Assembly: GCA_016875195.1 (NCBI GenBank)
Contig: VGRY01000031.1
Location: 1-43,858, forward strand
Reading direction: 5' to 3'
DNA from: Deltaproteobacteria bacterium
GTDB taxonomy: Bacteria > Desulfobacterota > BSN033 > UBA1163
DNA length: 43,858 bases
The notes under the pieces were generated by a model that was not told where the DNA came from, made no database searches, and was given only the letters and a program-made list of their open reading frames with translations. Every line of letters starts with the position of its first letter. Positions within the stretch are counted from its first letter, which is position 1. The translations under genes and the position numbers were made by a program. This document shows, piece after piece, positions 17,868-41,231 of this stretch.

Positions 17868-19484
17868 TCACGGCTTTTTGTGCCTTAATACCTTTCCTGA
17901 AGTCGCACCCATCACCTTCCCGTTGTCCACCGCAATTTCTCCGTTTACTAGGACGTAGCTTATGCCTTCGGGTTTTTGTTTCGGGTCTTCATAAGTTGAC
18001 TTATCTATGATTGTCTTGGGATTGAAAATAACAATATCTGCATCGAATCCCTCTTTCAATAATCCCTTTTTCTTCACTCGGAATGTCTGTGCGGGAAGGG
18101 AGGTCATCTTCCTAATTGCTTCCTCGAGGCTCAAAGGGCCTTTCTCTCTGACGTATCTCCCAAGTACCTTTGGGAACGTTCCGGTGAACCTCGGGTGAAC
18201 CTTGCTCACTCCAAAGCCGGGAATCCCGTCTGTTCCGATCATTGTGAAGGGGCTTTGTATGATTCTTTTGATGTCTTCCTCACTCATCACAAAAAGGATT
18301 ATGATAGTACCTCTTTTTTCCTCAACAACAAGGTCAAAGATCACGTCATAAGGACTTTTATTTTCTCTTTTTGCTATGTCAGCAATGGACCTACCAATAT
18401 AATCGTGATGGTTTGGGGATGCTGAGATGACCAGATTTTCAAAACCTGCTCCTTTTATTAAATTTTCCCATTGTCCCTCTCCGCCTTTTTCAATCTCTGC
18501 AATTACCTCCCGCCGAATGGTCGGATCCTTCAACTTTTCTGAAAATACCTCCGGGCCATCCGACAAGATGCTTGGTGGAAGAACTGCAGCCAGGAAGGTA
18601 CTTCCGGCTCTGTAGGGATACTGGTCACAGGTTATTTCAACCCCTCGAGCTCTCGCCTCTGCCATCATCTTCAGTGTTTCAACGCTCTTGCCCCAATTGT
18701 TCTTGCCGATTACCTTGTGGTGTGCAACATGGACTGGTATGTTTGCTTCTTCACCAATTTTTATAGCTTCGGTTAGGGCGGGAATTAGCGAATCACCCTC
18801 GCTTCGAATATGAGATGCATAGATGCCATTAAATTGACTGGCGACTTTGCTGAGCTCAATGATTTCATCTGTCCCCGCATAATTTCCTGGTGCATAGATG
18901 AGGCCGGTTGATATCCCCCAAGCACCATCTCCCATCGCATTCGCGACCAACTCCTTCATCCTCTTTAGTTCGGAATCTGTTGGCACACGGTTCGCTGAAC
19001 CCAATACTGCGATTCTAACAGTGGAATGACCGACCAAGGGAAGAATATTGATTCCCGGTTTTAGGTCTTCGAGCTTTCTCAAGTAATCATCAAAAGAACG
19101 GATTTCCAAATCTTCTTCCGATAAGTGTTCCCCACCCATCACCCTCAAGGTGTCTTTAATATCCGTCCTGTGGTCCTCTGATATGGGCGTCATGGAAAAA
19201 CCACAATTCCCAATCACTATTGTAGTAACCCCCTGTAATATCTTCTCGTCGCAGGTGGGATTGATCAGAAGATATAGATCATCATGGCTATGTGTATCAA
19301 CAAACCCTGGGCTTACTATTGAGCCATCAGCCTGGATAACCCGTTGCGAACCCTTTTGATTAATCTCCCTATTGATCCGGATAATTTGTCCGTTTGCTAT
19401 TCCAATATCTGCCCTGTAATATGGATTTCCTGTTCCATCTATTAAATGACCATTTTTTATTAATAGGTCAAATTGTTCTTGCAT
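17868..19484 (-). CDS. N-acyl-D-amino-acid deacylase family amidohydrolase
   Basis: A 538-residue cytosolic amidohydrolase. The metal site H-x-H is at residues 65 and 67 (GFVDTHSHDD). IGNCGFS supplies the cysteine typical of D-aminoacylases, YASHIRSEG and VAHHKVIGKNNWG the further histidines, and GTDGIPGFG the catalytic aspartate. The family hydrolyses N-acyl-D-amino acids or related N-substituted amino acids. It lies between the binding-protein gene and the opine-dehydrogenase-like gene on one strand, so it likely acts on the imported compound. D-hydantoinase-like activity is an alternative. Confidence 0.9.
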   Translation of the reverse strand: MQEQFDLLIKNGHLIDGTGNPYYRADIGIANGQIIRINREINQKGSQRVIQADGSIVSPGFVDTHSHDDLYLLINPTCDEKILQGVTTIVIGNCGFSMTPISEDHRTDIKDTLRVMGGEHLSEEDLEIRSFDDYLRKLEDLKPGINILPLVGHSTVRIAVLGSANRVPTDSELKRMKELVANAMGDGAWGISTGLIYAPGNYAGTDEIIELSKVASQFNGIYASHIRSEGDSLIPALTEAIKIGEEANIPVHVAHHKVIGKNNWGKSVETLKMMAEARARGVEITCDQYPYRAGSTFLAAVLPPSILSDGPEVFSEKLKDPTIRREVIAEIEKGGEGQWENLIKGAGFENLVISASPNHHDYIGRSIADIAKRENKSPYDVIFDLVVEEKRGTIIILFVMSEEDIKRIIQSPFTMIGTDGIPGFGVSKVHPRFTGTFPKVLGRYVREKGPLSLEEAIRKMTSLPAQTFRVKKKGLLKEGFDADIVIFNPKTIIDKSTYEDPKQKPEGISYVLVNGEIAVDNGKVMGATSGKVLRHKKP

Positions 19485-25156: not shown

Positions 25157-26695
25157 ATGAGTCCAATCCCCCTTCTCACATTACGAGGCATCACGAAGTC
25201 ATTTCCCGGTGTCCTTGCCAACAATCATGTCGATCTCGATATTTACGGCGGTGAGGTCCATGCCCTTCTTGGAGAAAACGGCGCTGGCAAAAGCACACTC
25301 ATGAAGATTCTCTATGGCTTTTACCGACCGGATTCTGGAGAGGTCCGCCTCAATGATCAACCCATCCATATCCAATCCCCTCACGATGCCCGGCAGTTTC
25401 GTATCGGAATGGTCTTTCAGGATTTCATACAGGTCCCTGCTTTAACCGTTGCCGAAAATATTACCCTCTTTCTTCCAACCTTGCCGTTTGTCCTGGATCA
25501 TGTTTCGATCATCAAACGGATTGAAGAAGTTTCCGGACGTTACGGGCTTAAGGTGAATCCCCATGCTTATGTTTGGCAGCTCTCGGTTGGAGAACGTCAG
25601 AAAGTGGAAGTCCTCAAGCTGCTCCTCGCAGACGCAAGGGTATTGATTTTCGATGAGCCGACCAGGAGTCTGGCTCCTCACGAAATAGAAGGGCTTTTCC
25701 AGGTCTTTGCAAATTTGAAGCGGGATGGATATGCCCTGGTTTTTATTACTCATAAGATGAAAGAGGTCTTAGCCTGCGCTGACCGGATCACGGTGTTGCG
25801 CCACGGCAAAGTGGCTGGCACGCTAAAAGGCTCGGAGGCCAATGAAAGAAGCCTGATTGCGCTGATGTTCGGCAGACAGATCGAGGAATCTCCGGGGCGG
25901 CCAAGCGAAAAGCAATCGGATGGAAGAAAGCCTCTCCTTGAATTAAAAGGAATAACGACCCAGACAGAAGGAATGGCTTGGGGTTTGAAGGATATCCACC
26001 TGACCATCAAACCCGGGGAAATTGTCGGCGTTGCCGGAGTTTCAGGCAACGGACAGAAAGAACTGGGCGATGTCGTTCTGGGACTTGAGAAGTGCGCTGC
26101 AGGAGTCAAATACCTGCATGGAGAGGAAGCAACTGCCTGGTCAGTCGCCCGGATCCGCGCAAGCGGAGTCGCTTTCATACCCGAGGATCCCCTGGGAATG
26201 GCGGCTTTCCCCTGGCTGAGTGTGCAGGAAAATATGGCTATGGCCAACCCCCGGATGTATTCGAAGCAAGGCGGCCTATCCATGGATTGGCAGGCGGTTC
26301 GTTCGGACCTGCAGGCATCGCTTGAGCGATTAGGGTTTAATATCCCACCCTATTATGTTCCGCTGGGGATTCTCTCAGGAGGGAACATCCAGCGGATGAT
26401 TCTGGCGCGCGAGATGGCTCACCACCCAAAACTGATCATTGCCTTTTATCCTACCCGTGGCCTCGATGTGCAGAGCGCCAATTCAGCAAGAAAAGTTCTG
26501 ACCTCTTCCCGGGACCAGGGAGCTGGCATCCTCCTTATTTCAGAAGACCTTGGCGAGTTGTTTAGTCTAAGCGACAGGCTGGTAGTCATGTTTCAGGGCC
26601 GAATTGTGGGGACGAGCACCCCTCAGCAAGTCAGCATTAACGAAGTGGGCTACCTCATGACCGGCTCAAAAGGAGAAACAAAACAGAGTGAATAA
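25157..26695 (+). CDS. BMP-type ABC importer, double ATPase
   Basis: A 512-residue protein with two ABC domains in tandem, as in nucleoside/sugar importers. Domain 1 has Walker A GENGAGKST (39-47), signature QLSVGERQK and Walker B VLIFDEPT. Domain 2 has the usual degenerate Walker A GVSGNGQKEL, signature LSGGNIQRM and IIAFYPTRGLDV. The GGAG touches the ATG, an odd spacing, so the exact start is uncertain. The stop overlaps the first permease by 8 bp. Relatives import purine nucleosides; here the substrate may be a ureide given the downstream genes. Confidence 0.93.
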   Translation: MSPIPLLTLRGITKSFPGVLANNHVDLDIYGGEVHALLGENGAGKSTLMKILYGFYRPDSGEVRLNDQPIHIQSPHDARQFRIGMVFQDFIQVPALTVAENITLFLPTLPFVLDHVSIIKRIEEVSGRYGLKVNPHAYVWQLSVGERQKVEVLKLLLADARVLIFDEPTRSLAPHEIEGLFQVFANLKRDGYALVFITHKMKEVLACADRITVLRHGKVAGTLKGSEANERSLIALMFGRQIEESPGRPSEKQSDGRKPLLELKGITTQTEGMAWGLKDIHLTIKPGEIVGVAGVSGNGQKELGDVVLGLEKCAAGVKYLHGEEATAWSVARIRASGVAFIPEDPLGMAAFPWLSVQENMAMANPRMYSKQGGLSMDWQAVRSDLQASLERLGFNIPPYYVPLGILSGGNIQRMILAREMAHHPKLIIAFYPTRGLDVQSANSARKVLTSSRDQGAGILLISEDLGELFSLSDRLVVMFQGRIVGTSTPQQVSINEVGYLMTGSKGETKQSE

Positions 26696-27734
26696 GGCTT
26701 TTTTGCAAATTGGTTTTCATCATCAATGGGTGGCCAGCGCTATTCGATTTGTCGGGCTTTTCGTCTTAGCATTAGTGTTTTTTGCCCTCATTTTGTTAGT
26801 GTTTGGAAAAAATCCCCTGCGGGCTTACGCAGATATTTTTTCGGCCACACTCGGAAGCGCCTATGGCTTTTCGGAAGTCGCGGTCAAAATGATTCCGCTG
26901 ATCCTCACCGCTCTGGCTGTGGCTCTGCCATCGAGGATCTGGCTCATCAATGTGGGTGGAGAAGGTCAGCTCTTCATCGGAGCGTTATTTGCCACGTGGG
27001 GAGCCGTCAATTTTACAAACTTACCCGTTTGGCTTCTTCTGCCATGGATTGGAATCTTAGGGTTTATCGGCGGCGGACTATGGGGGGCCATCTCCGGGTA
27101 TCTCAGGGTCAGAGGCTGGGCCAGTGAGACAATCTCCACCTTGCTGATGAATTATGTGGCCATTCTGCTGGTAAACTTTTTCGTCTTCGGTCCATGGAAA
27201 GATCCAGAGAGCGCAAATTATCCGCAGAGCGCTCCATTTCCGGATGCGGCCATTCTGCCCTCCTTCTTTGGGACACGGATCCACCTAGGGATTGTTCTGG
27301 CCATTGTCGGACTTATCCTCTTCCACTTTGTCCTGTCTCGGACACGCTGGGGTTTGGAAATGAGGGCAATCGGAGTCAATCAGGAAGCCGCTCGGCGAAA
27401 CGGGATCTCGACCAACCGATATATTATCCTTCTCATGCTGATCGGCGGCGGTGCAGCCGGGGTTGCCGGCATGGGTGAGGTTTCGGCTATTCACGGACAG
27501 CTCCGGCCGAGCCTCTCACCGGGTTTAGGGTACACTGGCTTTCTGATCAGTTGGATGGCCGGCGGCCATCCCATAGGTATCGTGGCAGCAGCCTTTCTTC
27601 TTTCTGTCATTACCGCTGGCGGAGATATTCTCCAGATGACCCACAGGATTCCAGCTGCAGGAGTCCACATCCTGATGGCCTTGATCTTATTCGTGGTGCT
27701 GGCCCGGCCGGCCGGTAAAAAGGGAGGAAAATGA
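26688..27734 (+). CDS. BMP-type ABC importer permease 1
   Basis: A 348-residue inner-membrane permease with about nine to ten hydrophobic segments. It carries the typical block GGEGQLFIGALFATWGAV and the coupling segment RTRWGLEMRAIGVNQEAARRN seen in nucleoside-type BMP importers. It overlaps the ATPase gene by 8 bp and the next permease by 4 bp (ATGA), so the three are translated together. Confidence 0.93.
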   Translation: MNKAFLQIGFHHQWVASAIRFVGLFVLALVFFALILLVFGKNPLRAYADIFSATLGSAYGFSEVAVKMIPLILTALAVALPSRIWLINVGGEGQLFIGALFATWGAVNFTNLPVWLLLPWIGILGFIGGGLWGAISGYLRVRGWASETISTLLMNYVAILLVNFFVFGPWKDPESANYPQSAPFPDAAILPSFFGTRIHLGIVLAIVGLILFHFVLSRTRWGLEMRAIGVNQEAARRNGISTNRYIILLMLIGGGAAGVAGMGEVSAIHGQLRPSLSPGLGYTGFLISWMAGGHPIGIVAAAFLLSVITAGGDILQMTHRIPAAGVHILMALILFVVLARPAGKKGGK

Positions 27735-28648
27735 TCATATCTTTTTTAATCAGCATCATCTCAGGAGCAATCCATTCAGGCACGCCTCTGCTCTATGCTA
27801 CTCTTTCTGAGACTGTCGGGGAACGGACCGGCATTGTCAATCTCGGTCTCGAAGGCATCATGCTCATAGGAGCGGTCGTTGGTTTTACGACCACAGTCCA
27901 GACCGGCAATCCTCTTTTGGGGGTTTTGGCTGCTGCTCTGGCCGGGGGGCTTTTCAATATGGTATTTGGATTTCTGGTGATTACCCGTCGTGCCAATCAA
28001 TTGGCCAGTGGCCTTGCCCTGATGTTTTGTGGCGTTGGTTTAAGCGCAATGATCGGAGCCTCTTTTATTGGAAGCCGAATCCAGGGCCTTAACGAAGTAC
28101 GGATTCCTTTGTTCTCGGATATCCCGATCGTCGGCCGAATGTTCTTCAATTACGACATCCTTGTTTACTCAGCAATTCCAGTCGCTGTCCTGGTATGGTG
28201 GTTAATGTTTCGAACACGCTGGGGATTGGGCTTGCGGGCTGTTGGAGAAAATCCTACGGCGGCTTTTGCAGCCGGAAAAAATCCCCATAGGCTGCAATAC
28301 CAGGCGCTATTCATTGCAGGCATCCTTGGCGGTATTGCGGGCGCCCACCTGTCATTAGCCATAGCCAAAACCTGGGCAGAATGGATGACCGCTGGACGGG
28401 GTTTCATTGCGGTTGCCCTGGTGATATTCTCTAAATGGCATCCTCTCCGGGCCATTGCTGGAGCTTTGCTCTTTGGAGGGGCAATCTCTCTGCAGCTGCA
28501 GATGCAAGCCCGCGGAGTGCCAGTCTCGTCTTTTCTGTTGGATATGCTCCCTTATGTGTTGAGCCTGGTGGTGCTTGCCATCTGGAGCGGCGCTCGCCGT
28601 CATGCGACTCCAGGGAGTCTGGGGCGGGTCTTCCAGGGAACAGAATAA
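27731..28648 (+). CDS. BMP-type ABC importer permease 2
   Basis: A 305-residue permease with about eight hydrophobic segments. ERTGIVNLGLEGIMLIGAV near the N-terminus and RTRWGLGLRAVGENPTAAFA in the coupling loop are characteristic. It forms a heterodimer with the preceding permease. The start ATGA overlaps the previous stop, with a GGGAGGAAA ribosome site. Confidence 0.93.
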   Translation: MIISFLISIISGAIHSGTPLLYATLSETVGERTGIVNLGLEGIMLIGAVVGFTTTVQTGNPLLGVLAAALAGGLFNMVFGFLVITRRANQLASGLALMFCGVGLSAMIGASFIGSRIQGLNEVRIPLFSDIPIVGRMFFNYDILVYSAIPVAVLVWWLMFRTRWGLGLRAVGENPTAAFAAGKNPHRLQYQALFIAGILGGIAGAHLSLAIAKTWAEWMTAGRGFIAVALVIFSKWHPLRAIAGALLFGGAISLQLQMQARGVPVSSFLLDMLPYVLSLVVLAIWSGARRHATPGSLGRVFQGTE

Positions 28649-28706
28649 GCAAAAGAGGTTAAGTTTTGTAATGTGTATTTATTAAATAACAAAGGAGGAA
28701 AGAAAA

Positions 28707-29807
28707 ATGAGTGAAAAGAAAATGAACCTTACTGTGAAGTTGCTGTCTGTTCTAACATGCCTGGCCCTAGTTTTAACCTGGGGATTACCTGAACCGACTG
28801 CTCAGGCAAAACTGAAGGTGGGAATTATCCACATCGGGTCTATTAATGACGCGGGTTATAACCAGGCCCATTCTGAAGGCGTTCAGATCATGAAGAAGAA
28901 TCTGCCGAACGTTGAGGTGATCCAGGTTGAGAATGTCCCTGAGGGGGCTGATGCTGAGCGGGTCATGGAGAATATGATCAAACAGGGAGCCCAGCTGATC
29001 ATTCCAGCTAGTTTTGGCTACCTCGATCCGGCCTTAAGGGTTGCCAAAAAATACCCTGATGTCAAATTCGTTCACCCTGGCGGATACAAGCTTGCCCCAA
29101 ACCTTGGCACCTATTGGGCCAGCACTCCGGATGCCTTCTACCTGATGGGCATTGCTGCAGGAAAGACCACGAAAACAAACAAGGCTGGATATGTGGTTGC
29201 GCTTCCCATCAGTTTTTTCCTGGCCAATATTAATGCCTTCCATCTCGGAGCCCGTTCTGTAAATCCCAAAATGGAAACCCGCGTGGTTTTCATGGGGACG
29301 TTTTTGGATGCTCCCAAGGAGGCTACCGCAACCAATGCCTTGCTGGATCAGGGAGTGGATGTCCTAGGGGTCATCGTGGACTCCCCCATCACTGTCGTAC
29401 AAGCCGCTGAGAAACGCGGGGCTTACTCCATTGGCTATCATTACCTTGGGGTTCAGAAATTCGCTTCAAAGGGGTGGGTCAGCGGCATTGCCTTTACCTG
29501 GGGTGAACTCTACACCCGTTTTGCCAAGCAGGTCATGGACGGCACATGGAAGAGCGAGGCCCTTTTGGGAAACTTAGCCAGCGACTTTCTCACCATCGCT
29601 CCCTTCGGTCCGGTTGTTCCGCCTGATGCCATTAAATTGGTAAACGAAACAAAGCAGGAATTCATCAATGGCAAGAAGAATGCTTACCAGGGTCCGATTA
29701 AAGACAATAAAGGCGTTGAGCGCGTGAAAGCCGGTGAATTCTGGCCTCTGACTAATATAGGAAAGATGGATTGGCTGGTTGAAGGCGTTATTGGCCAACC
29801 CAAGTAA
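28707..29807 (+). CDS. BMP-family substrate-binding protein
   Basis: A 366-residue periplasmic binding protein. The signal peptide runs to about residue 34 (cleavage near AQAK). There is no clear lipobox, unlike many BMP lipoproteins. The mature part begins KVGIIHIGSINDAGYNQAHS, the family signature, with the NDAGYN motif near the ligand. AAAGGAGG precedes the ATG. Relatives bind purine nucleosides, but its placement before AllH/AllG/FdrA suggests allantoin-like, oxamate-like or other N-carbamoyl compounds. Confidence 0.92.
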   Translation: MSEKKMNLTVKLLSVLTCLALVLTWGLPEPTAQAKLKVGIIHIGSINDAGYNQAHSEGVQIMKKNLPNVEVIQVENVPEGADAERVMENMIKQGAQLIIPASFGYLDPALRVAKKYPDVKFVHPGGYKLAPNLGTYWASTPDAFYLMGIAAGKTTKTNKAGYVVALPISFFLANINAFHLGARSVNPKMETRVVFMGTFLDAPKEATATNALLDQGVDVLGVIVDSPITVVQAAEKRGAYSIGYHYLGVQKFASKGWVSGIAFTWGELYTRFAKQVMDGTWKSEALLGNLASDFLTIAPFGPVVPPDAIKLVNETKQEFINGKKNAYQGPIKDNKGVERVKAGEFWPLTNIGKMDWLVEGVIGQPK

Positions 29808-29812
29808 GACTG

Positions 29813-30790
29813 ATGGTATTGATTCAATCACAACCAAGAAGAATGGAGGGACCACTTCGCTGGGTGAGCATGAAGCGAAGCGGTCTTAAAGCCAAAGACC
29901 TTTTGGCCACTCCTGGATTCTCCGGACAGGTCTTGGCCACTCTATCGGGTGTCACCTATTTATTAGGAGACAATGGAGAGATGCTTTGGTTGGTTCGGGA
30001 TGGAGGACTTTTACATAGACGATGCATTGAAGTTTCTTTTCTGCCTCCGTCTTTATTCAGGGGTCAGAATTTTTTGGTGGAAGACCATCTTTTACAAATC
30101 GGCGGGAACCTGATTTATGATCTAAGCCCAGCCACAGAATGGAAACCTCCAATGTTAAGGCCGGAGGATATAGGCCCGTTTACAAAAGGTCAAGCTGGCG
30201 TCCGGAGATTGCTGGAGGTTATTTCATTTTCCAGCGGTAATCACGATTCAGATAAATTGATTTCCATGGTTTCCTTTCTGATCAAGGAGCGATCTTTTCC
30301 AACCTGCCCTCTGGAGTCAGTGGCGCATAAGATATATACACCGATTCTTAATCTTGCCAAGCTTTATCTAAGCCAGGGCATGGTCAATTTTCCTATCGCA
30401 GCAAGAGCGCTGGTTGGACTGGGACCGGGTCTGACTCCGGCTTGTGATGATTTTTTAGGAGGGTTGCTCTTTGCTGCTCATTGGCTTAAAAAATGTTATC
30501 ATGGAAAGTTTTATTGGGATGAACAGCCTATTTATGATCTGATGGATTGGGCGAAGCATCAAACCCATCCGATCAGCTCTACCATTCTCTCTGACCTGAC
30601 TCTGGGGCACGGCCCTGAGTCCCTCCATGAATTGGTTGTCAGACTAATCCGGGAAGAAGACCCTGAACGGGGAATGAACTGTGTGGACTCTTTAGGTAGA
30701 TTAGGCCACACCACTGGCTGGTATATGTTGGCAGGCCTTCTGACGGGTATGTTCTTGATCCCCGATAAACCCAACAGGTTCTGGAGTTAG
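29813..30790 (+). CDS. allH: AllH-like protein (DUF2877)
   Basis: A 325-residue protein of the DUF2877 family, recognised by ARALVGLGPGLTPACDDFLG followed by GLLFAAHWL and by LSDLTLGHGP. In Escherichia coli the family member YlbF (AllH) works with YlbE (AllG) and FdrA (AllF) as oxamate carbamoyltransferase, the late step of anaerobic allantoin breakdown that yields carbamoyl phosphate. The start is uncertain: no strong ribosome site lies before 29813, and ATGs at 29846 and 29870 are alternatives. It begins 5 bp after the binding-protein stop. Confidence 0.85.
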   Translation: MVLIQSQPRRMEGPLRWVSMKRSGLKAKDLLATPGFSGQVLATLSGVTYLLGDNGEMLWLVRDGGLLHRRCIEVSFLPPSLFRGQNFLVEDHLLQIGGNLIYDLSPATEWKPPMLRPEDIGPFTKGQAGVRRLLEVISFSSGNHDSDKLISMVSFLIKERSFPTCPLESVAHKIYTPILNLAKLYLSQGMVNFPIAARALVGLGPGLTPACDDFLGGLLFAAHWLKKCYHGKFYWDEQPIYDLMDWAKHQTHPISSTILSDLTLGHGPESLHELVVRLIREEDPERGMNCVDSLGRLGHTTGWYMLAGLLTGMFLIPDKPNRFWS

Positions 30791-30838
30791 AGAGAATGTA
30801 ACCCCTTTTTTTAAAAAACGAATGGAATGGAGGAGATC

Positions 30839-32104
30839 ATGGCTACGGAAGATCTCAAACAAAAGATTGAAACAGTTAACACAGAAACCGTAAAAAAGAT
30901 CAATGCCGCAGACCCTGTGCTTGTTGACATTGCTCCAGCCGGAGAAGTCATTCCAAGAATGAGAGACAGAATGATTCTCCATTCGGGCCCGCCTGTGGAT
31001 TGGCAGAATATGTGTGGCGCTCAGCGAGGTGCCATGATCGGCGCTGTTCTTTTTGAAAAATGGGCTGAAAATGCGGAAGAGGCAGAAAAACTTCTTGAGG
31101 CTGGGAAGATCCAATTTGAGCCAAATCATCATCACCAGGCAGTGGGCCCCATGGCTGGCACCATCTCACCCTCCATGCCGGTCTGGGTCGTTGAGAACAG
31201 AGCCTTCGGAAACCGTGCCTTCTGCCGTCAGGTGGAAGGCCGCCAGCAATTTGGCGATTACAGTGATTCCGCCCTGGGAGATTTACGGCTATGGCGTGAT
31301 ATCTGGGCGCCCTCTCTTCGAAAAGGCCTTCTTCAGAGGGGAGGCCTGGAAATGAAACCGATCATTGCCAAGGCCCTGACGATGGGCGATGAGCTCCACA
31401 ACCGTCCTGTTGCTGCCTCAAGCCTCTTTGCCAATGCAATGGTCTGCCCGATGATTGAAGCTGGCGTCGAAAAAGACAACCTCCTCAGCACCATCAACTA
31501 TATCACCAGGCATGAGCTTCTCTTTCTTGCTCTCTCCATGGCGTCGGGGAAAGCTTCTGTGGACCCGGCAGCAGGCATAGAATATAGCACTGTCGTTGTT
31601 GCCATGGCCCGAAATGGCACGGAGTTTGGCATCCGGGTCAGCGGTCTTGGGGATGAATGGTTTACTGCTCAATCGCCCAGGGTCAACGGGCTCTACTTCC
31701 CAGGTTATTCAGAAAAGGATGCAGGCGCTGACATGGGTGATTCTGCTATCACCGAGACAGCCGGTTGGGGAGGGTTAGTTCTGGCCGGTGCCACAGGAAT
31801 TCTCGGTTTTGTTGGAGGGACACCTGAAGAAGCCCTCGCTTACAGTAAGGAGATGCGTCAGATTACAGTGAGCACGAGTTCGAATTACCGTATGCCTGTT
31901 TTTGGTTTTCAGGGCGCTCCTTTGGGGATTGATATACGTAAAGTGGTCCAGACCGGGATCACCCCGATTATAGATACGGCTATTGCTCATAAGAATCCAG
32001 GCTACTCCATCATCGGAGCAGGACTGGTTCGTGCTCCGATGGACTGCTTTAAAAAAGCACTGATCCGCTTTGGCCAGAAATATGGAGTTGGTCGCACCAA
32101 TTAA
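30839..32104 (+). CDS. allG: AllG-like protein (DUF1116)
   Basis: A 421-residue DUF1116 protein (YlbE/AllG type). It has the family's NMCGAQRGAMIGAVLFEKWA, the GDYSDSALGDLRLWRD-like region and ALTMGDELHNRPVAAS with LVRAPMDCFKKAL at the end. The start is the ATG at 30839, because GGAGGAG (30829-30835) is well placed for it; the ATG at 30827 overlaps that ribosome site. It is predicted to form the carbamoyltransferase with FdrA and AllH. A double hairpin separates it from fdrA. Confidence 0.88.
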   Translation: MATEDLKQKIETVNTETVKKINAADPVLVDIAPAGEVIPRMRDRMILHSGPPVDWQNMCGAQRGAMIGAVLFEKWAENAEEAEKLLEAGKIQFEPNHHHQAVGPMAGTISPSMPVWVVENRAFGNRAFCRQVEGRQQFGDYSDSALGDLRLWRDIWAPSLRKGLLQRGGLEMKPIIAKALTMGDELHNRPVAASSLFANAMVCPMIEAGVEKDNLLSTINYITRHELLFLALSMASGKASVDPAAGIEYSTVVVAMARNGTEFGIRVSGLGDEWFTAQSPRVNGLYFPGYSEKDAGADMGDSAITETAGWGGLVLAGATGILGFVGGTPEEALAYSKEMRQITVSTSSNYRMPVFGFQGAPLGIDIRKVVQTGITPIIDTAIAHKNPGYSIIGAGLVRAPMDCFKKALIRFGQKYGVGRTN

Positions 32105-32120
32105 TGGAGGAAGCATGTCA

Positions 32121-32164
32121 CCTCCCTTTGGCAAAGGGAGGTTGCCCGCCTGCCGGTAGGCAGG
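32121..32164 (+). terminator. Double hairpin between allG and fdrA
   Basis: CCTCCCTTT/AAAGGGAGG (32121-32129, 32133-32141, loop GGC) is followed by CCTGCC/GGCAGG (32149-32154, 32159-32164, loop GGTA), then a moderately T-rich stretch. It may attenuate transcription into fdrA or protect the upstream message. The two stems resemble the hairpins at 188-210 and 23976-23994, so they could equally be dispersed repeats. Confidence 0.45.
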
Positions 32165-32229
32165 GGAGGGATTTTATAAATATTTTTCTAAACCATTAAA
32201 TGGTCACTTAGGTTTAAAAGTCAATCAAT

Positions 32230-33774
32230 ATGATCACACGATGTATCATCCGAAAAAATGAATATTATGATTCTGTTTTCCTGATGCGTGTGGCCAAACA
32301 GATAGCTGAGCAGAAAGGCGTTCTGCAGGCCGCCACTTTCATGGGAACCGAGAAAAACAAAGGTCTGCTTGCAGACATTGGATTTGAAAGTGGAGAGATC
32401 TCTTCAGCCAAACCAAATGATCTGATCATTGCTATCCGGGCTGAGAATGAAGAAACACTATCTTCCGTGTTTGAGAACATTGACCATTGGCTCAATCAGG
32501 GTCTGGAACAGATTGGAGCAACTTCTTGCCGAACGCTTGAAGAGGGAGTGGCTTTTCTTCCTCGCTCCAATCTTGCGGTCATTTCGGTTCCCGGGCAGTA
32601 TGCCAGTCGTGAGGCCAAAAAGGCGCTGGAACATTGCCTCAATGTTTTTCTCTTCAGCGACAATGTCCCTGTGGAGAGCGAGCTCTCTCTGAAAGAGTTT
32701 GCCCGCGAAAAAGGTCTCATCGTCATGGGACCGGATTGCGGAACAGCCATCATCAATGGGATCGGAATCGGTTTTGCTAATCTGGTTCGACGTGGACCCA
32801 TCGGTGTCATTGGTTCCTCAGGAACAGGACTTCAGGAATTCACGACGCTTGTTCATCGCTTTGGCTCAGGCATCTCTCATGCCATTGGAACCGGTGGCCG
32901 CGATCTTTCGGATCAGGTCGGCGGCATCACGTTTCTCTCTGCACTGGACGCACTCGAATCGGATAGAGAAACCCGGGTTATTGCGCTTCTGTCCAAGCCG
33001 CCTGGTTCTTCCGCCCTTGAAAAACTCATTCAGAAAATTCATCTCTGCAAAAAACCTGTGATTGCCTGTTTCCTCGGTCTTAAATATCAACCTACCCATG
33101 AATCTATAGGTTGCAAGCTTGTTAGAACTATTGACGAGGCTGCTTCGCTTTCTGTTCAACTCGAAACTGGTAACCCACCTTCCCTTTCAGAAAAAAACCA
33201 CCGTGAATTGGAGGAACTGATCCGTCAACACCAAACCGCCAAAAGACAAGAACAAAAATTCATTCGCGGGATCTTTGCAGGCGGCACATTCTGCTATCAG
33301 GCACAGCAGATCTTACGGGATGCAGGGATTTCAGTTTACTCTAACGTTCCTCTTCATGGCAATCCAAAACTGCCAGATCCCTTGCATAGTATAGAACACA
33401 CTCTCGTCGATATGGGCGCAGATGAATTCACATTCGGACGGCCTCATCCCATGATTGATTCCGGTCTCCGTTATGAACGCATCCTCGCAGAGGCAAAAAA
33501 TCCTCAAGTTTCGATTCTACTCCTCGATTTTATTCTAGGCCTCAATGCCTCACCGGATCCTGCTGGAGAGCTCCTTCCTGCTATTGTTGAGGCAAAGCAC
33601 GAAGCTAAGAAACATGGGGAATCCCTCAGCGTAGTCGCCTCAATATGTGGTACGGAAAACGATCCTCAGAATATCCAGCAGCAAATTAAGATACTTGAGG
33701 AATCAGGTATCATCACCTTCTCAAGCAGCGCGCAGGCCGCCCGTTTCTGTGCCCTTCTCATGGGAGGTTCTTAG
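32230..33774 (+). CDS. fdrA: FdrA, acyl-CoA-synthetase-like subunit
   Basis: A 514-residue protein related to the succinyl-CoA synthetase fold. It has N-terminal ITRCIIRKNEYYDSVFLMRV, MGPDCGTAIINGIGIGFANL, then VIGSSGTGLQEFT and HAIGTGGRDLSDQVGG, the nucleotide/phosphate and phosphohistidine-like regions of FdrA. It is slightly shorter than the E. coli protein (about 555). With AllG and AllH it is predicted to transfer carbamoyl groups from oxamate or a similar ureide product to phosphate. A carbamate kinase, the usual next enzyme, is not in the window. Confidence 0.9.
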   Translation: MITRCIIRKNEYYDSVFLMRVAKQIAEQKGVLQAATFMGTEKNKGLLADIGFESGEISSAKPNDLIIAIRAENEETLSSVFENIDHWLNQGLEQIGATSCRTLEEGVAFLPRSNLAVISVPGQYASREAKKALEHCLNVFLFSDNVPVESELSLKEFAREKGLIVMGPDCGTAIINGIGIGFANLVRRGPIGVIGSSGTGLQEFTTLVHRFGSGISHAIGTGGRDLSDQVGGITFLSALDALESDRETRVIALLSKPPGSSALEKLIQKIHLCKKPVIACFLGLKYQPTHESIGCKLVRTIDEAASLSVQLETGNPPSLSEKNHRELEELIRQHQTAKRQEQKFIRGIFAGGTFCYQAQQILRDAGISVYSNVPLHGNPKLPDPLHSIEHTLVDMGADEFTFGRPHPMIDSGLRYERILAEAKNPQVSILLLDFILGLNASPDPAGELLPAIVEAKHEAKKHGESLSVVASICGTENDPQNIQQQIKILEESGIITFSSSAQAARFCALLMGGS

Positions 33775-33784
33775 GGAGAGTTCC

Positions 33785-33958
33785 ATGAATGATAAACTTA
33801 AGGATCTATTAAAGAATGGACCGATTGCAATCAATATCGGGATCTTCAATTTTGCCGAAAGCCTGAAGATTCAGGGCGTAGAAGTGATTCATATGAATTG
33901 GACCCCACCCGCAGGCGGCGACCCTGAACTCATGGACCTCCTTGACCAGTTGTTATAA
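33785..33958 (+). CDS. Small FdrA-domain protein
   Basis: A 57-residue protein. INIGIFNFAESLKIQGVEVI followed by HMNWTPPAGGDPELMDLLD matches short proteins found beside fdrA and labelled FdrA-domain. I start it at 33785 (GGGAGAGTTCC upstream), 10 bp after the fdrA stop; a longer frame would run through fdrA. Its role is unknown. It could be a structural subunit of the FdrA/AllG/AllH complex. Confidence 0.78.
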   Translation: MNDKLKDLLKNGPIAINIGIFNFAESLKIQGVEVIHMNWTPPAGGDPELMDLLDQLL

Positions 33959-35654: not shown

Positions 35655-37022
35655 ATGAACAGTCATGAGGTCAAACGTAAGCTGGCTGCTATTTTCAGCG
35701 CAGATGTTAAAGGCTACAGCCGCCTCATGGAGGAGAATGAAATTGGAACTGTTCGAACCCTTACCGCTTATAGAGAAATCATGACCAACTTCATCCGTCA
35801 GCACAAAGGGCATGTCATAGATTCTCCTGGGGATAATCTTTTAGCTGAGTTTGCGAGTGTCGTAGAGGCTGTACAGTGTGCAGTTGAAATCCAGAAAGAA
35901 CTAAAATTAAAGAATGCTGAGCTACCTGAAAAGGGCAGGATGGAATTTCGAATAGGGATCAATCTTGGAGATGTCATTGAGGAAGGAGAACGGATTTATG
36001 GTGACGGAGTCAATGTCACTGCGCGGGTTCAGAGCTTGGCTTATGGCGGAGGAATCTGTATCTCAGGAACAGCCTACGATCAAGTTGAGAATAAACTTGG
36101 CCTAAACTATGAATATCTTGGGGAACAACCCGTTAAGAATATTACAAAGCCGGTGAGGGTTTATCGGGTATTGATGGAGACCAGACCATTTGCTCCGGCT
36201 GAAATCATAGAACAACATATTCAATTCTGCACCACCGTAGACGGAGTTCGCATCGCCTACTCTATGGTGGGTCAAGGACCTTTCTTAGTCATCCCTCCCG
36301 GATGGGTTAGTCATTTGCAGTTACAATGGGAGCATCCATCTGCACGTGACTATTTGGAGAAAGGAACTCGTAATCAAACCTTTCTATTTTACGATAAACA
36401 CGGATGTGGCCTCTCTGAACGGAACAGGACAGAATTTACCTTAGAGTCAGAAGTTCACCCATTAGAAGCTGTTATTGACCATCTCAAGCTTAAACGTTTC
36501 GCTTTGTTCGGATTTTCTTGTGCTGGTTCTACGGCCATTGCTTATGCGATTAAGTATCCGAGGCGTGTTTCACATTTAATCTTATACGATTCTTATGCTC
36601 GAGGTGAGGCAATTACTACCGAGGAATTCAAGAAAGGTTTTTCATCCTTGATTCGTTCCGCTTGGGGTGTTGGTTCTAAGACTCTAGCTGACATGTTCTT
36701 ACCCGGTGCTGATGTCTCGGCCCTTAAATGGTTCACCCGTTTACAACGTGAGGCAGCTACAGCAGAAATGGCTTCAAAATTGATAGATTTTACATACAAG
36801 CTTAATGTGATAGACCTTCTTCCCAGATTACGTGTTCCTACTTTGGTGATTCATCGCAAGGATGACAAGGCTATTCCATTCCATCTTGGGATGGAGATGG
36901 CATCTTTGATTCCAAACTCTCGCTTTGTTCCATTAGAAGGAAATATTCATATACCTTTCTTTGGTGATGCAGATGCTGTGTTGCGCATCATGGGTGAATT
37001 TTTGAGTACACCTGGTCATTGA
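35655..37022 (+). CDS. Class III cyclase fused to alpha/beta hydrolase
   Basis: A 455-residue fusion. Residues 5-175 are a class III cyclase domain with metal aspartates D17 (IFSADVKGYS) and D60 (SPGDN) and transition-state N120 and R124 (GDGVNVTARV). From about 190 it is an alpha/beta-hydrolase: nucleophile S288 in GFSCAG, aspartates at 403-404 (HRKDDK) and H432 (GNIHIPF). The purine-contact positions are D56 and R113, not the Lys/Asp of adenylyl cyclases. ATG 35655 is preferred over GTG 35646 because AGGGGG sits eight bases before it. The hydrolase may act as a sensor or enzyme. Confidence 0.88.
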   Translation: MNSHEVKRKLAAIFSADVKGYSRLMEENEIGTVRTLTAYREIMTNFIRQHKGHVIDSPGDNLLAEFASVVEAVQCAVEIQKELKLKNAELPEKGRMEFRIGINLGDVIEEGERIYGDGVNVTARVQSLAYGGGICISGTAYDQVENKLGLNYEYLGEQPVKNITKPVRVYRVLMETRPFAPAEIIEQHIQFCTTVDGVRIAYSMVGQGPFLVIPPGWVSHLQLQWEHPSARDYLEKGTRNQTFLFYDKHGCGLSERNRTEFTLESEVHPLEAVIDHLKLKRFALFGFSCAGSTAIAYAIKYPRRVSHLILYDSYARGEAITTEEFKKGFSSLIRSAWGVGSKTLADMFLPGADVSALKWFTRLQREAATAEMASKLIDFTYKLNVIDLLPRLRVPTLVIHRKDDKAIPFHLGMEMASLIPNSRFVPLEGNIHIPFFGDADAVLRIMGEFLSTPGH

Positions 37023-37087
37023 ACGGGTTCAATTGGGTAATTGGGGACGGGTTCAGATTTTTGAGCACTTCTTATGGGGTGAACAAA

Positions 37088-40000
37088 ATGAAATGCTCGA
37101 AGTGCCAATTTGAAAATCTAGAGAATGCCAAATTTTGTAGCGAATGCGGCAATAAGTTGGAAATACATTGTCCCAAATGTGGGGGAGTGAATCCCCTCAG
37201 TAGCAAGTTTTGCAGTGAATGTGGGCATCGTATTGCCCTCCCCAAGGAATCCCTTAGAAAAGAACTTTCTTATGATGAAAAGATAGCCAGGATTCAAAAG
37301 TATCTTCCCGGAGGATTAACTGAGAAAATTCTATCTCAACGTGACAGGATTGAAGGCGAGCGAAAGCAGGTTACAGTGATGTTTTGTGACATGGAGGGAT
37401 ATACAGGCCTTACCGAAAAGCTCGGCCCCGAAGAAGCTTATTCTCTGATGGACAAGGTCTATGAAATCCTCATCCGTAAGGTTCATGAATATGAAGGGAC
37501 AGTTAATGAACTGACTGGTGATGGAATTATGGCTCTATTCGGAGCTCCGATTGCTCTGGAAGATGCTCCTCAAAGAGCTATTCGATCTGCATTAGCCATC
37601 CATCGGGAGATGAGCAAGTTCAGCGATCAACTCAAAAGCGAAAGCAGAATGCCGTTTATTAAGATGCGGATTGGGATTCACACAGGCCCAGTAATTGTTG
37701 GCACTCTGGGTAATGATCTTCGGGTGGAGTTCAAGGCAGTGGGAGACACAGTAAATCTCGCCTCCCGTATGGAGGGATTAGCAGAGCCCGGCACCACCTT
37801 TGTGACTGAGGATATCTTTAATCTTACCGAGGGATTCTTCCGGTTTGAGGCGTTGGGAGAGAAGCAGATTAAGGGTAAGAAAGAGCCAGTCAAGGTCTAC
37901 CAGGTAATCGTCCCCAGCACGAGGAGAACAAGATTTGATGTGAGCGCCGAACGAGGCTTGACTCCTTTTGTTGGAAGAGAGAGGGAACTTGAACTTCTGC
38001 TCGATGGATTTACAAGAGCCAAATCAGGAAAGGGCCAAGCGTTTTCCATCGTATCTGAGGCCGGATGTGGTAAGTCGAGGCTTTTGTATGAATTCAGGAA
38101 GGCAATAGTCAACGAGAATGTAACTTTTTTGGAAGGGAAATGTCTCTCCTACAGCAGAGGTGTTGCCTACCACCCAGTAATAGATATTCTGAAGTCAAAC
38201 TTCGATATACATGAAGGAGAGGGGGATCAGGAAACCAGAGAAAAGGTCAAAAGAGGCCTGGAAATAATGAAAGTTGATGAACCTTCAACCCTTCCTTATC
38301 TCCTTGAACTTCTTTCAGTAAAAGATAGTGGTATTGATAAGATTTCCATGAGCCCTGAAGCAAAGAAAGATAGGATTATTGAGGCAATCAAGCGCATTGT
38401 TCTTAGAGGTTCTGAGATACGGCCTCTGGTCATGGCATTTGAAGACCTTCACTGGATAGATAAAAGCTCCGAGGATGTGGTAAGAAGCCATCTGGAGAGC
38501 ATACCGGGAGCAAGGATATTATTGATATTTACCTATCGGCCTGAGTTCGTTCACACCTGGGGAGCAAAGTCATATCACAATCAATTAACATTGCATCGGC
38601 TTTCTAATCGGGAAAGCTTTGAGATGGCAACCCATATTTTAGGGACAAAAGAGATTGAAAAGCCACTTGAGGAGTTAATCCTTGAGAAGACGGAAGGTGT
38701 TCCATTTTTCATTGAGGAGTTTATAAAATCCCTCAGAGACTTAAAGATCATCGAGAAAAGAGACAACACCTATTGTTTGTCAAAAGATATCCATCAACTG
38801 ACTATTCCTTCAACAATACAAGATGTGATCATGGCGAGGGTTGATTCCTTGCCAGAGGGAGCGAAAGAAGTGCTTCAGACCGGGTCCGTCATTGAAAGAG
38901 AATTCGGCTACGAATTGATAAGGCGGATCATGGATTTCCCGGAGCAAGAATTATTCTCCAATCTCTCTGTTTTAAAGGATTCAGAACTTCTTTATGAGAG
39001 AGGCATTTACCCCCAATCGAATTATATCTTTAAGCACACTCTAACCCGTGAAGTAGTCAAAGACTCAATATTAACCAAGAGAAAGAAAATCCTTCATGAG
39101 GACATCGGGAAGGCCATCGAGGAATTACATAGAGATAATTTGAGTGAGTATTACGAAGTTTTAGTTGAGCACTATTTCTTGAGTGAGAATTATTCTAAAG
39201 GAGCTGAGTATTCAAGATTGGCGAGCAGAAAGGCTGAAAAGGCAGCCTCGCTAAATGATGCGATTACCTATACCAAGAAAAGAGTGACATCTCTTGAGCG
39301 ATTACCCCAGATAGACGATGTGCAAAAACAGATTATTGATGGCAGGACGGCTCTTGGGCTCTATATGATTCAAATGAACTATCATACTGAGGCACAAGAA
39401 GCTATCGGCCCGATTATTGATTTGGCCATAAAACACGATTATAAGAGGAGACTTTGCCAGATATACACGGTCTTGGGGGCAAACTATCTGTTTATGGAAA
39501 ATGATTGTTTGAAAGCATTTAAAGTTTTGGAGGAGGCCTTAAAGATATCGGGGGAAATAAAAGACTATGCTACCTCACTTTTTGCAAGCTACTGGTTTGG
39601 AGCTGCTTCAGGTTGGAACTGTGAATTTGAAAGATCAGCACAATATATCCAAAAAGCTCTTGATATTAATATAGCAACAAGAACTCTTTGGGGAATTTCA
39701 GCAATAAAGAGCGATCTGGCTTATTTTAGTTATTTCTTCTCAGGAAAAATAAATTTAGGATTCCAGACAACCCAGGAAGCTGTCCTCATTGCCGAAGAAA
39801 GCGGAGATATTTATTCGAAAGCAATTGCGAATATCATGTATGGACTTTTCTGCCACGGAAAGGGATTGCTGGAAGAGGCTGAAAAGCATCTGCTTAAGGG
39901 GCTCGAATTTAGTGAAAGGATCAATCTCCCTTCTCGGAATATGGTTGCACGATATTGGCTCGGAGAGACCTACTTTGAAATGGGAGATTTTCCGAGATCT

Positions 40001-40456
40001 AAAGAACATTATGAAAAAGGGATTTTGATTTCAGAGAATGATCGAACTCATCCATCCTGGGCGAATCTTGAAAAGGTAAATTTGGCAAGGACAAAGGTAT
40101 TGGATAAAGAGAAAGATGTGGATTTAGAATCGTTGTATGCCTATTCACGAAATAATAAGTTGAAAGTAATCGAAGGCTGGTTCCAAAGATACATTGGAGA
40201 AATTCTGCTAAATATTGATGATCAACACTTATCTGAAGCAGAGCATTGGGTTCAGAAGGCCATCGAAGCCGATCAACGAAACCGTATGATGTTTCATCTG
40301 GGTAAAGATTATGCCCTTTACTCAGATTTGTTCAGACAAAAAGGAGACAGATTAAAAGCCCAGGAAAATCTCGGCAAAGCCATCGAAATCCTCAAAGAGT
40401 GCGGCGCCGACGGCTGGGTCGAAAAATATGAAAAAGAGTTAACTGCAATTTCTTAA
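37088..40456 (+). CDS. Zinc-ribbon, class III cyclase, ATPase, TPR protein
   Basis: A 1122-residue multidomain protein. Residues 3-46 hold four CxxC pairs (double zinc ribbon). The cyclase domain is at about 95-275: metal residues D101 and D145, catalytic N223 and R227. A STAND/AAA-type ATPase begins near 295, with P-loop SEAGCGKS (about 323-330) and Walker B MAFEDLHWID. From about 750 to the end are TPR-like helical repeats. Purine-contact positions are E141 and K216. The ATG at 37088 follows GGGGTGAAC. It is probably a cytosolic signal integrator making a cyclic nucleotide when the ATPase/TPR part binds its cue. Confidence 0.92.
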   Translation: MKCSKCQFENLENAKFCSECGNKLEIHCPKCGGVNPLSSKFCSECGHRIALPKESLRKELSYDEKIARIQKYLPGGLTEKILSQRDRIEGERKQVTVMFCDMEGYTGLTEKLGPEEAYSLMDKVYEILIRKVHEYEGTVNELTGDGIMALFGAPIALEDAPQRAIRSALAIHREMSKFSDQLKSESRMPFIKMRIGIHTGPVIVGTLGNDLRVEFKAVGDTVNLASRMEGLAEPGTTFVTEDIFNLTEGFFRFEALGEKQIKGKKEPVKVYQVIVPSTRRTRFDVSAERGLTPFVGRERELELLLDGFTRAKSGKGQAFSIVSEAGCGKSRLLYEFRKAIVNENVTFLEGKCLSYSRGVAYHPVIDILKSNFDIHEGEGDQETREKVKRGLEIMKVDEPSTLPYLLELLSVKDSGIDKISMSPEAKKDRIIEAIKRIVLRGSEIRPLVMAFEDLHWIDKSSEDVVRSHLESIPGARILLIFTYRPEFVHTWGAKSYHNQLTLHRLSNRESFEMATHILGTKEIEKPLEELILEKTEGVPFFIEEFIKSLRDLKIIEKRDNTYCLSKDIHQLTIPSTIQDVIMARVDSLPEGAKEVLQTGSVIEREFGYELIRRIMDFPEQELFSNLSVLKDSELLYERGIYPQSNYIFKHTLTREVVKDSILTKRKKILHEDIGKAIEELHRDNLSEYYEVLVEHYFLSENYSKGAEYSRLASRKAEKAASLNDAITYTKKRVTSLERLPQIDDVQKQIIDGRTALGLYMIQMNYHTEAQEAIGPIIDLAIKHDYKRRLCQIYTVLGANYLFMENDCLKAFKVLEEALKISGEIKDYATSLFASYWFGAASGWNCEFERSAQYIQKALDINIATRTLWGISAIKSDLAYFSYFFSGKINLGFQTTQEAVLIAEESGDIYSKAIANIMYGLFCHGKGLLEEAEKHLLKGLEFSERINLPSRNMVARYWLGETYFEMGDFPRSKEHYEKGILISENDRTHPSWANLEKVNLARTKVLDKEKDVDLESLYAYSRNNKLKVIEGWFQRYIGEILLNIDDQHLSEAEHWVQKAIEADQRNRMMFHLGKDYALYSDLFRQKGDRLKAQENLGKAIEILKECGADGWVEKYEKELTAIS

Positions 40457-41162: not shown

Positions 41163-41231
41163 GAAATTGATTATAAGGAAAGGCTCTAATTCCATAATAA
41201 AATTTCTTTTCTAATATTGAGGGAAGGAAAA

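Follow-up and report, generated by a model that had tools for sequence, protein, structure and literature searches.

Gene content of the locus

The window, the whole stretch of 43,858 nt analyzed here (contig VGRY01000031.1 of a deltaproteobacterial genome), carries between positions 25157 and 33958 of its plus strand a run of eight genes: four that encode an ATP-binding cassette (ABC) importer, followed by AllH, AllG, and FdrA, and finally an open reading frame (ORF) of 57 residues. AllH, AllG, and FdrA (AllF) have one homologue each among the three proteins of Escherichia coli oxamate carbamoyltransferase (OXTCase), and here all three lie in one run. An earlier note, made from the sequence alone, had described these eight genes as a one-strand set with tight or overlapping joints and had predicted a ureide or carbamoyl pathway from them. 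The genes are present as described, with all eight frames free of internal stops and with support from Pfam or NCBIfam, that of the 57-residue ORF being a match to the tail of a model below its cut-off.

The importer is a complete set of the BMP type, with one binding protein, two permeases, and one ATPase with two ABC domains. The ATPase (25157..26695, +) matches Pfam ABC_tran in two stretches over the Pfam cut-off, and its nearest NCBIfam model, NF047930, scores 440 bits, below the cut-off of 670. Permease 1 (26688..27734, +; BPD_transp_2, 128 bits) has a GTG start and overlaps the ATPase gene by 8 nt, and is followed by permease 2 (27731..28648, +; BPD_transp_2, 130 bits) and by an AtzT-like binding protein of the BMP family (28707..29807, +; PF02608, 142 bits; 6PI5, which is AtzT, E 1.8e-83; 3S99, E 5.7e-68). 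The AllH (DUF2877) subunit (29813..30790, +; PF11392, 60.7 bits) comes next, and then AllG (DUF1116) in a short form that lacks an N-terminal module (30827..32104, +; PF06545, 248 bits; 3CLQ, E 1.3e-102); this is the only copy of AllG found in its own genome (4.08 Mb, 87% complete). FdrA (32230..33774, +; PRK06091; 3DMY, E 7.6e-83) is likewise a short form, without the C-terminal module: its 514 residues cover positions 3-491 of the 555 in PRK06091, at 481 bits against a cut-off of 433. The tail that this FdrA is without is what the last gene matches (33785..33958, +; PRK06091 positions 498-554, 40 bits; 3DMY chain positions 426-473, E 6.3e-5). The ORF was scored in its 103-residue open frame (33647-33958), where there is no Pfam match, and it falls far below the PRK06091 cut-off because it corresponds only to that model's tail.

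Most joints in the run are indeed tight, with two overlaps (8 and 4 nt) and four gaps of 5-58 nt, but the AllG-FdrA gap, at 125 nt, departs from the earlier description. It holds a near-perfect palindrome (32121..32141, strand not applicable), a putative element found at one place in the window at ≤3 mismatches, with 0.02 matches expected. A scan for sigma-70 promoters and terminators gave nothing usable above shuffled sequence (7 promoter-like sites against 8.2 expected and 16 terminator-like sites against 11.1 expected).

A mobile module present once in most loci

A mobile, one-copy module occurs here in free form as the 57-residue protein, a point that the earlier note missed. A collection scan gave at least 577 relatives, and the best 80 were kept; these, together with the window, E. 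coli AllFGH, E. coli YahEFG, and four stretches from related genomes, make up 87 loci. A hidden Markov model (HMM) built from 17 free copies finds the module exactly once in 80 of the 87 loci and twice in none, and a rerun on all six frames without a start-codon requirement agrees. In its own genome the window's module is likewise a single copy. What varies is its place: in the 80 loci it forms the N-terminus of AllG (42), a free gene (20), the C-terminus of FdrA (11), or the linker of an FdrA-AllG fusion (7). These counts include two labels changed by hand from coordinates, L022 from FdrA C-terminus to free and L080 from "other" to AllG N-terminus; before relabelling they were 41 AllG N-terminus, 19 free, 12 FdrA C-terminus, 7 linker, and 1 other. 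Six of the seven loci without the module have no FdrA match, and in the seventh (L019) FdrA is cut by the contig end. Put the other way, 75 of the 76 loci with a tblastn match to FdrA carry the module, L019 being the exception; an FdrA HMM adds L045, bringing the loci with FdrA to 77.

On the tree of the AllG core (86 rows, one quick-method tree, with L011 left out as too short), the fewest changes of place that account for the labels are 10. The labels are clustered, as shuffling them gave a mean of 34.3 changes and a value as low in 0 of 200 trials.

Members of the module share the pattern INIG..F...L......VDW.PP.GG, and N17, G19, W39, and P41 are invariant in 50 of them. The sole relative by sequence in the PDB is 3DMY, E. 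coli FdrA, at chain positions 426-473. Modelled alone, the module reaches a predicted local distance difference test score (pLDDT) of 80.4 and a predicted template modelling score (pTM) of 0.51, and a fold search with this model ranks 3DMY first at an E-value of 0.075, which is not significant. Natural fusions of FdrA, module, and AllG, 997-1043 residues long, occur in L042, L047, L049, L054, L055, L085, and L038.

Since relatives have a single copy and yet that copy is fused to different partners, the module is probably needed. Its fusion to both FdrA and AllG is also a hint at where the subunits meet, and we hypothesize from these fusions that it is an obligate fourth part working where FdrA and AllG come together.

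Conservation of the operon

The window's AllG falls in a clade of 15 rows with a support of 100* (SH-aLRT, the Shimodaira-Hasegawa-like approximate likelihood-ratio test). Importer and BMP genes were searched for in the 15 loci of this clade and in 70 others. The importer lies upstream of AllG in 12 of the 15; among these twelve, FdrA is matched in 11 (L010 ends before FdrA) and AllH in 11 (none was found in L018). The remaining three are L013, which begins at AllG, L014, which has AllG without FdrA, and L015, which has no importer. No BMP match above the threshold of 45 bits occurs in the 70 loci outside the clade, and related permeases are found in L035 and L066. The relatives come, by their record titles, from metagenome-assembled genomes (MAGs) of Chloroflexi, Thiotrichales, Wenzhouxiangella, Actinobacteria, and Holophagaceae.

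Closer to home, AllG occurs in 5 of the 297 genomes sampled from the phylum and in 4 of the 10 sampled from the genus, and the operon is recognizable in each of those four. The gene order is kept in G122, which belongs to a different class, and in G237 and G297; G298 shows no permease 1 and has broken copies of permease 2 and AllH. Of the 297 phylum genomes, 4 contain the module, three of them at the operon and one, G222, beside fragments of FdrA and a carbamate kinase. The earlier note had offered co-occurrence of the neighbours in other genomes as one of its checks, and the neighbours are conserved; the finding is real.

In a comparison with L008 and L009, the window lies closer to G122, of another class, in its importer and AllH and closer to G237, of the same genus, in its AllG and FdrA. 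These mixed affinities may be read as a sign of recombination or transfer.

Comparison with known systems

E. coli OXTCase has the same three subunits (43% identity for AllG and 39% for FdrA) and has the module too, as the C-terminal end of the 555-residue AllF. It differs in that the module is a separate gene here, in that an importer is attached here, and in that a kinase and AllC, AllD, and AllE stand beside the operon in E. coli, none being adjacent here; the E. coli complex is reportedly paired with the carbamate kinase AllK. The enzyme is reported to convert oxalurate and phosphate to oxamate and carbamoyl phosphate, an activity whose first measurements date from the 1960s and whose three genes were not assigned until 2024, and the purified complex of AllF, AllG, and AllH, described as having three subunits, has this activity (PMC11326118). 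A fourth part does not contradict that description, since the module is part of AllF there. With oxalurate being an N-carbamoyl amide, the general reaction would be acylurea phosphorolysis, a reaction that we assign to the window's proteins by homology to AllFGH. A confident structural model of AllH (AlphaFold2; pLDDT 91.3, pTM 0.90) has a beta-rich N-terminal and a helical C-terminal part, and with no PDB match at E ≤ 0.001 in a fold search it gives no lead from fold.

The second E. coli cluster, YahEFG with YahI and YahJ, resembles the window in that its FdrA is of equal short length (YahF, 515 residues), and includes the kinase-like YahI. It differs in that the module forms the N-terminal start of YahG and that no importer is annotated in the stretch examined. 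Among the open-access papers listed for YahEFG, YahI, and YahJ, none has a title on their function.

Arrangements of this kind are in print for nitrifiers, where comammox Nitrospira are reported to have bmpA-nupABC together with allFGHK and biuH, and a Nitrososphaerales MAG to have it together with allFGHK (PMC12625717). As in the window, a BMP-type importer is co-located with AllFGH, and the link between such an importer and allFGHK is therefore not new here. The likeness is one of description; the kinase is co-located in the nitrifiers but not in the window, no BiuH over the cut-off occurs in the window's own genome, and the passages of that paper on which we draw make no mention of a separate 57-residue module. 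What is new, in the sense that it was not found in the open-access literature, is the module, free-standing, mobile, and in one copy, together with the genomic connection to a kinase cluster described below.

The binding protein

The nearest solved binding protein is AtzT of the atrazine transporter operon (44% identity over 329 columns), which is reported to bind guanine at 110 nM (PMC6834077). In the window protein four AtzT pocket residues, Glu165, Trp194, Asn218, and Asn220, give way to Phe, Phe, Ile, and Asp, and Tyr45, Ser97, Phe98, and Asn169 are kept. Glu165, Asn218, and Asn220 contact guanine in AtzT, and none of the three is kept. Across the 12 binding proteins of the clade, Tyr45 is kept in 12, Ser97 in 7, and Glu165 and Asn218 in none, with Asn220 replaced by Asp in all 12; at position 194 the window protein and three near relatives have Phe, and the remaining eight have Trp. 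Because the guanine pocket of AtzT is not kept, the ligand is likely a ring compound or ureide other than guanine. The earlier note had called the importer nucleoside-type, a label that is weakened by these changes, and the reading of it as a purine importer by homology to AtzT was not upheld by the pocket residues.

Carbamate kinase and the completion of the pathway

Neither a carbamate kinase nor an allantoin enzyme was in view according to the earlier note, which is borne out: a scan of 14 window ORFs against family libraries found none, and the sole BLASTP match of the window ORFs to E. coli AllB, AllC, AllD, AllE, AllK, YahI, or YahJ is a local alignment between a D-aminoacylase-like protein and AllB. 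The note's suggestion that the pathway is completed elsewhere holds for the carbamate kinase at least, since the same genome encodes one, over its cut-off, on another contig (C40). There it is accompanied by ornithine carbamoyltransferase (OTCase), dihydropyrimidinase, aspartate carbamoyltransferase (ATCase), and adenine deaminase, all over their cut-offs, and it adjoins subunits like those of xanthine dehydrogenase (XDH), whose best matches are below cut-offs, and an M20 protein. YgeW and YgeY are over their cut-offs on contig C20; E. coli YgeW is reported to take part in uric acid breakdown by forming carbamoyl phosphate (PMC12507026).

In two relatives the kinase stands at the operon itself. 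The sister species G297 has a single run of OTCase, dihydropyrimidinase, ATCase, an IclR-type regulator, the importer, AllH, AllG, FdrA, the module, carbamate kinase, and PyrE; in other words, the operon sits inside a cluster of the C40 type, between ATCase and kinase. In G122 (L009) the kinase comes after the operon, as does an ATCase-like gene whose product has a changed R230-Q232 motif (R-V-Q to Q-I-P), has lost the KKGET loop, and reads S-M-R-T at the S53-T56 carbamoyltransferase motif S-T-R-T. Pseudo-ATCases are reported to change the R-x-Q motif, and one of them is a ureidoglycine carbamoyltransferase encoded next to a kinase (PMC4016543). In L020 a kinase and a partial ATCase lie upstream on the other strand. 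Two large subunits of carbamoyl-phosphate synthetase are over the cut-off both in the window's own genome and in G237, and with two of them in its own genome the kinase need not be anabolic.

A D-aminoacylase-like amidohydrolase is encoded at 17868-19484 on the minus strand (best NCBIfam match PRK09061, below the cut-off), next to genes that by eye resemble those of a TRAP importer. UacY of the reductive uric acid pathway is described as a D-aminoacylase homologue (PMC12507026). Two adjacent and very similar large proteins of the window (37019-40456 and 41217-43766, +) have by eye the look of cyclase-AAA-TPR regulators.

A proposed acylurea phosphorylase with its own importer

We propose that the eight genes form one unit in which an acylurea phosphorylase, supplied by a dedicated importer, makes carbamoyl phosphate, and we consider this probable, by a modest measure. 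The ABC importer would take up a small ureide, or else a cyclic compound from which ring opening yields a ureide. A four-part complex of AllF core, AllG, AllH, and the 57-residue module would then use phosphate to split this N-carbamoyl amide (R-CO-NH-CO-NH2 + Pi -> R-CO-NH2 + carbamoyl phosphate), just as oxalurate is split by the E. coli OXTCase. Finally, the carbamate kinase encoded elsewhere in the genome would use carbamoyl phosphate and ADP to yield ATP, CO2, and NH3. The gene content, its conservation, the single copy and shifting position of the module, and the presence of the kinase are established here; the reaction (by homology to AllFGH), the direction of flow, the need for the module, and the class of substrate are inferred from them.

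Several observations weigh against this proposal. All 10 genus genomes have the kinase, including 6 that lack AllG, so that it is not specific to the operon. No carbamoyl-phosphate synthetase is over the cut-off in G297. The OTCase, ATCase, and dihydropyrimidinase beside the kinase on C40 may belong to biosynthesis, as ArgF, PyrB, and PyrC: with the ATCase model no other such gene is found in the window's genome except YgeW, no dihydroorotase is over the cut-off in three genomes, the C40 gene being the best match, and the neighbour of the kinase is PyrE in G297 and, in G237, a protein with an identical start. We at first read the C40 ATCase as a catabolic enzyme, which was undone by its retained ATCase residues, and it may therefore be PyrB. 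Within the clade of the window's AllG, L014 and L015 have no importer. The module, for its part, is on AllG without a tblastn match to FdrA in five loci (L026, L041, L045, L068, and L072); three of these (L041, L045, and L068) start close to AllG at a contig end, L045 showing an FdrA tail by HMM, which leaves L026 and L072 with AllG and module and no FdrA within the DNA examined. L014 and L075 have AllG with neither FdrA nor module, and G222 has a fragment of FdrA, the module, and a kinase fragment with no AllG match. Lastly, the starred branches of the quick AllG tree taken alone force fewer than 10 changes of place.

Two other explanations are narrower forms of our proposal, and for that reason their odds overlap with its own. 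The first is that this is a plain OXTCase, with an importer that takes up oxalurate or an allantoin-like compound and a complex that cleaves oxalurate. Only oxalurate and oxamate have been demonstrated for the family in the literature that we consulted (PMC11326118, in the sections used here), and the genes for XDH-like subunits, adenine deaminase, dihydropyrimidinase, YgeW, and YgeY in the window's own genome speak for purine breakdown. However, the 15-row clade with its support of 100* is separate from the one containing E. coli AllG and the loci with AllC, AllE, and AllD, and no AllC-, AllE-, or AllD-like gene was found in the clade's loci, the search having covered these loci and not the whole of the window's own genome. 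We regard this narrower version as unlikely.

Somewhat less likely again is that the substrate is biuret, allophanate, or a ureide derived from triazines. This would suit a binding protein nearest to AtzT of the atrazine operon, and in L020 a BiuH (396, cut-off 370) and an amidase are inserted between the BMP gene and AllH, with ORFs of the same BLASTP groups at that spot in L021 (a grouping only). The nitrifier contigs, too, combine biuH with bmpA-nupABC, those of comammox also with allFGHK (PMC12625717). Yet AtzT is reported to bind cyanuric acid only weakly, at 340 uM (PMC6834077), the pocket residues of the window's group differ from those of L020 and L021, and no BiuH is over the cut-off in the window's own genome, G237, G122, G093, or G035.

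That the operon travels as a mobile passenger, with no fixed role in this genome, is improbable. The patchiness of AllG in phylum and genus would suit a passenger, as would the G+C content (0.50-0.53 over 26-32 kb, compared with 0.41-0.44 for parts of the flanking sequence), the broken permease 2 and AllH of G298, and the remnant in G222, but in the window all frames are intact, and the order is kept as far away as G122. An acyl-CoA synthetase of the succinyl-CoA synthetase kind, suggested by the CoA_binding and Ligase_CoA domains of FdrA and its homology to SucD over residues 99-285, is hardly credible and was rejected as the main reading of FdrA, since the alignment stops before the SucD GHAGA loop, which we take to hold the phosphohistidine, the GHAGA motif is absent from the window FdrA, E. 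coli FdrA, and YahF, no ATP-grasp family is among the Pfam matches, and E. coli AllFGH is reported to have OXTCase activity (PMC11326118).

The wider family and its significance

Beyond the window's clade, the neighbours of the family are varied. By BLASTP groups over 85 loci, with names that rest on one or two scanned members per group, they include carbamate kinase (26 loci, among them L009 of the window clade), a PF04199-cyclase group (22), the large subunit of a molybdenum (Mo) hydroxylase (15), a xanthine/uracil-type permease (14), PucR (13), and malonate decarboxylase (2); cytosine-deaminase-like neighbours occur in 7, the scanned member being below that family's cut-off. YahFG-type loci (L027, L029, L034, L035, L084, and others) show varying mixes of Mo-hydroxylase, PF04199 cyclase, xanthine/uracil-type permease, and PucR, and in L027 and L029 malonate decarboxylase adjoins the YahFG-type genes. 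As a proposal only, the neighbours of the YahFG type would fit a route from uracil through barbiturate and ureidomalonate to malonamate and carbamoyl phosphate. We found no open-access paper that brings together at least three of ureidomalonate, barbiturase, malonamate, uracil, and carbamoyl phosphate.

A broader hypothesis, which we advance tentatively and rate at a little less than even, is that the AllFGH family as a whole is a general four-part acylurea phosphorylase with the module as its obligate, movable fourth part. The clades would then differ in the N-carbamoyl amide that they cleave: E. coli would use oxalurate, the window's clade an imported ureide, and the YahFG-type loci perhaps pyrimidine-derived ureidomalonate.

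If the movable fourth part is needed, the three-gene picture of this enzyme would be incomplete wherever that part is a separate small gene, and because 0 of 48 module sequences match a Pfam family at E ≤ 0.001, annotation can miss it. With the conserved importer, in turn, more kinds of imported nitrogen compound may serve as sources of ATP by way of carbamoyl phosphate.

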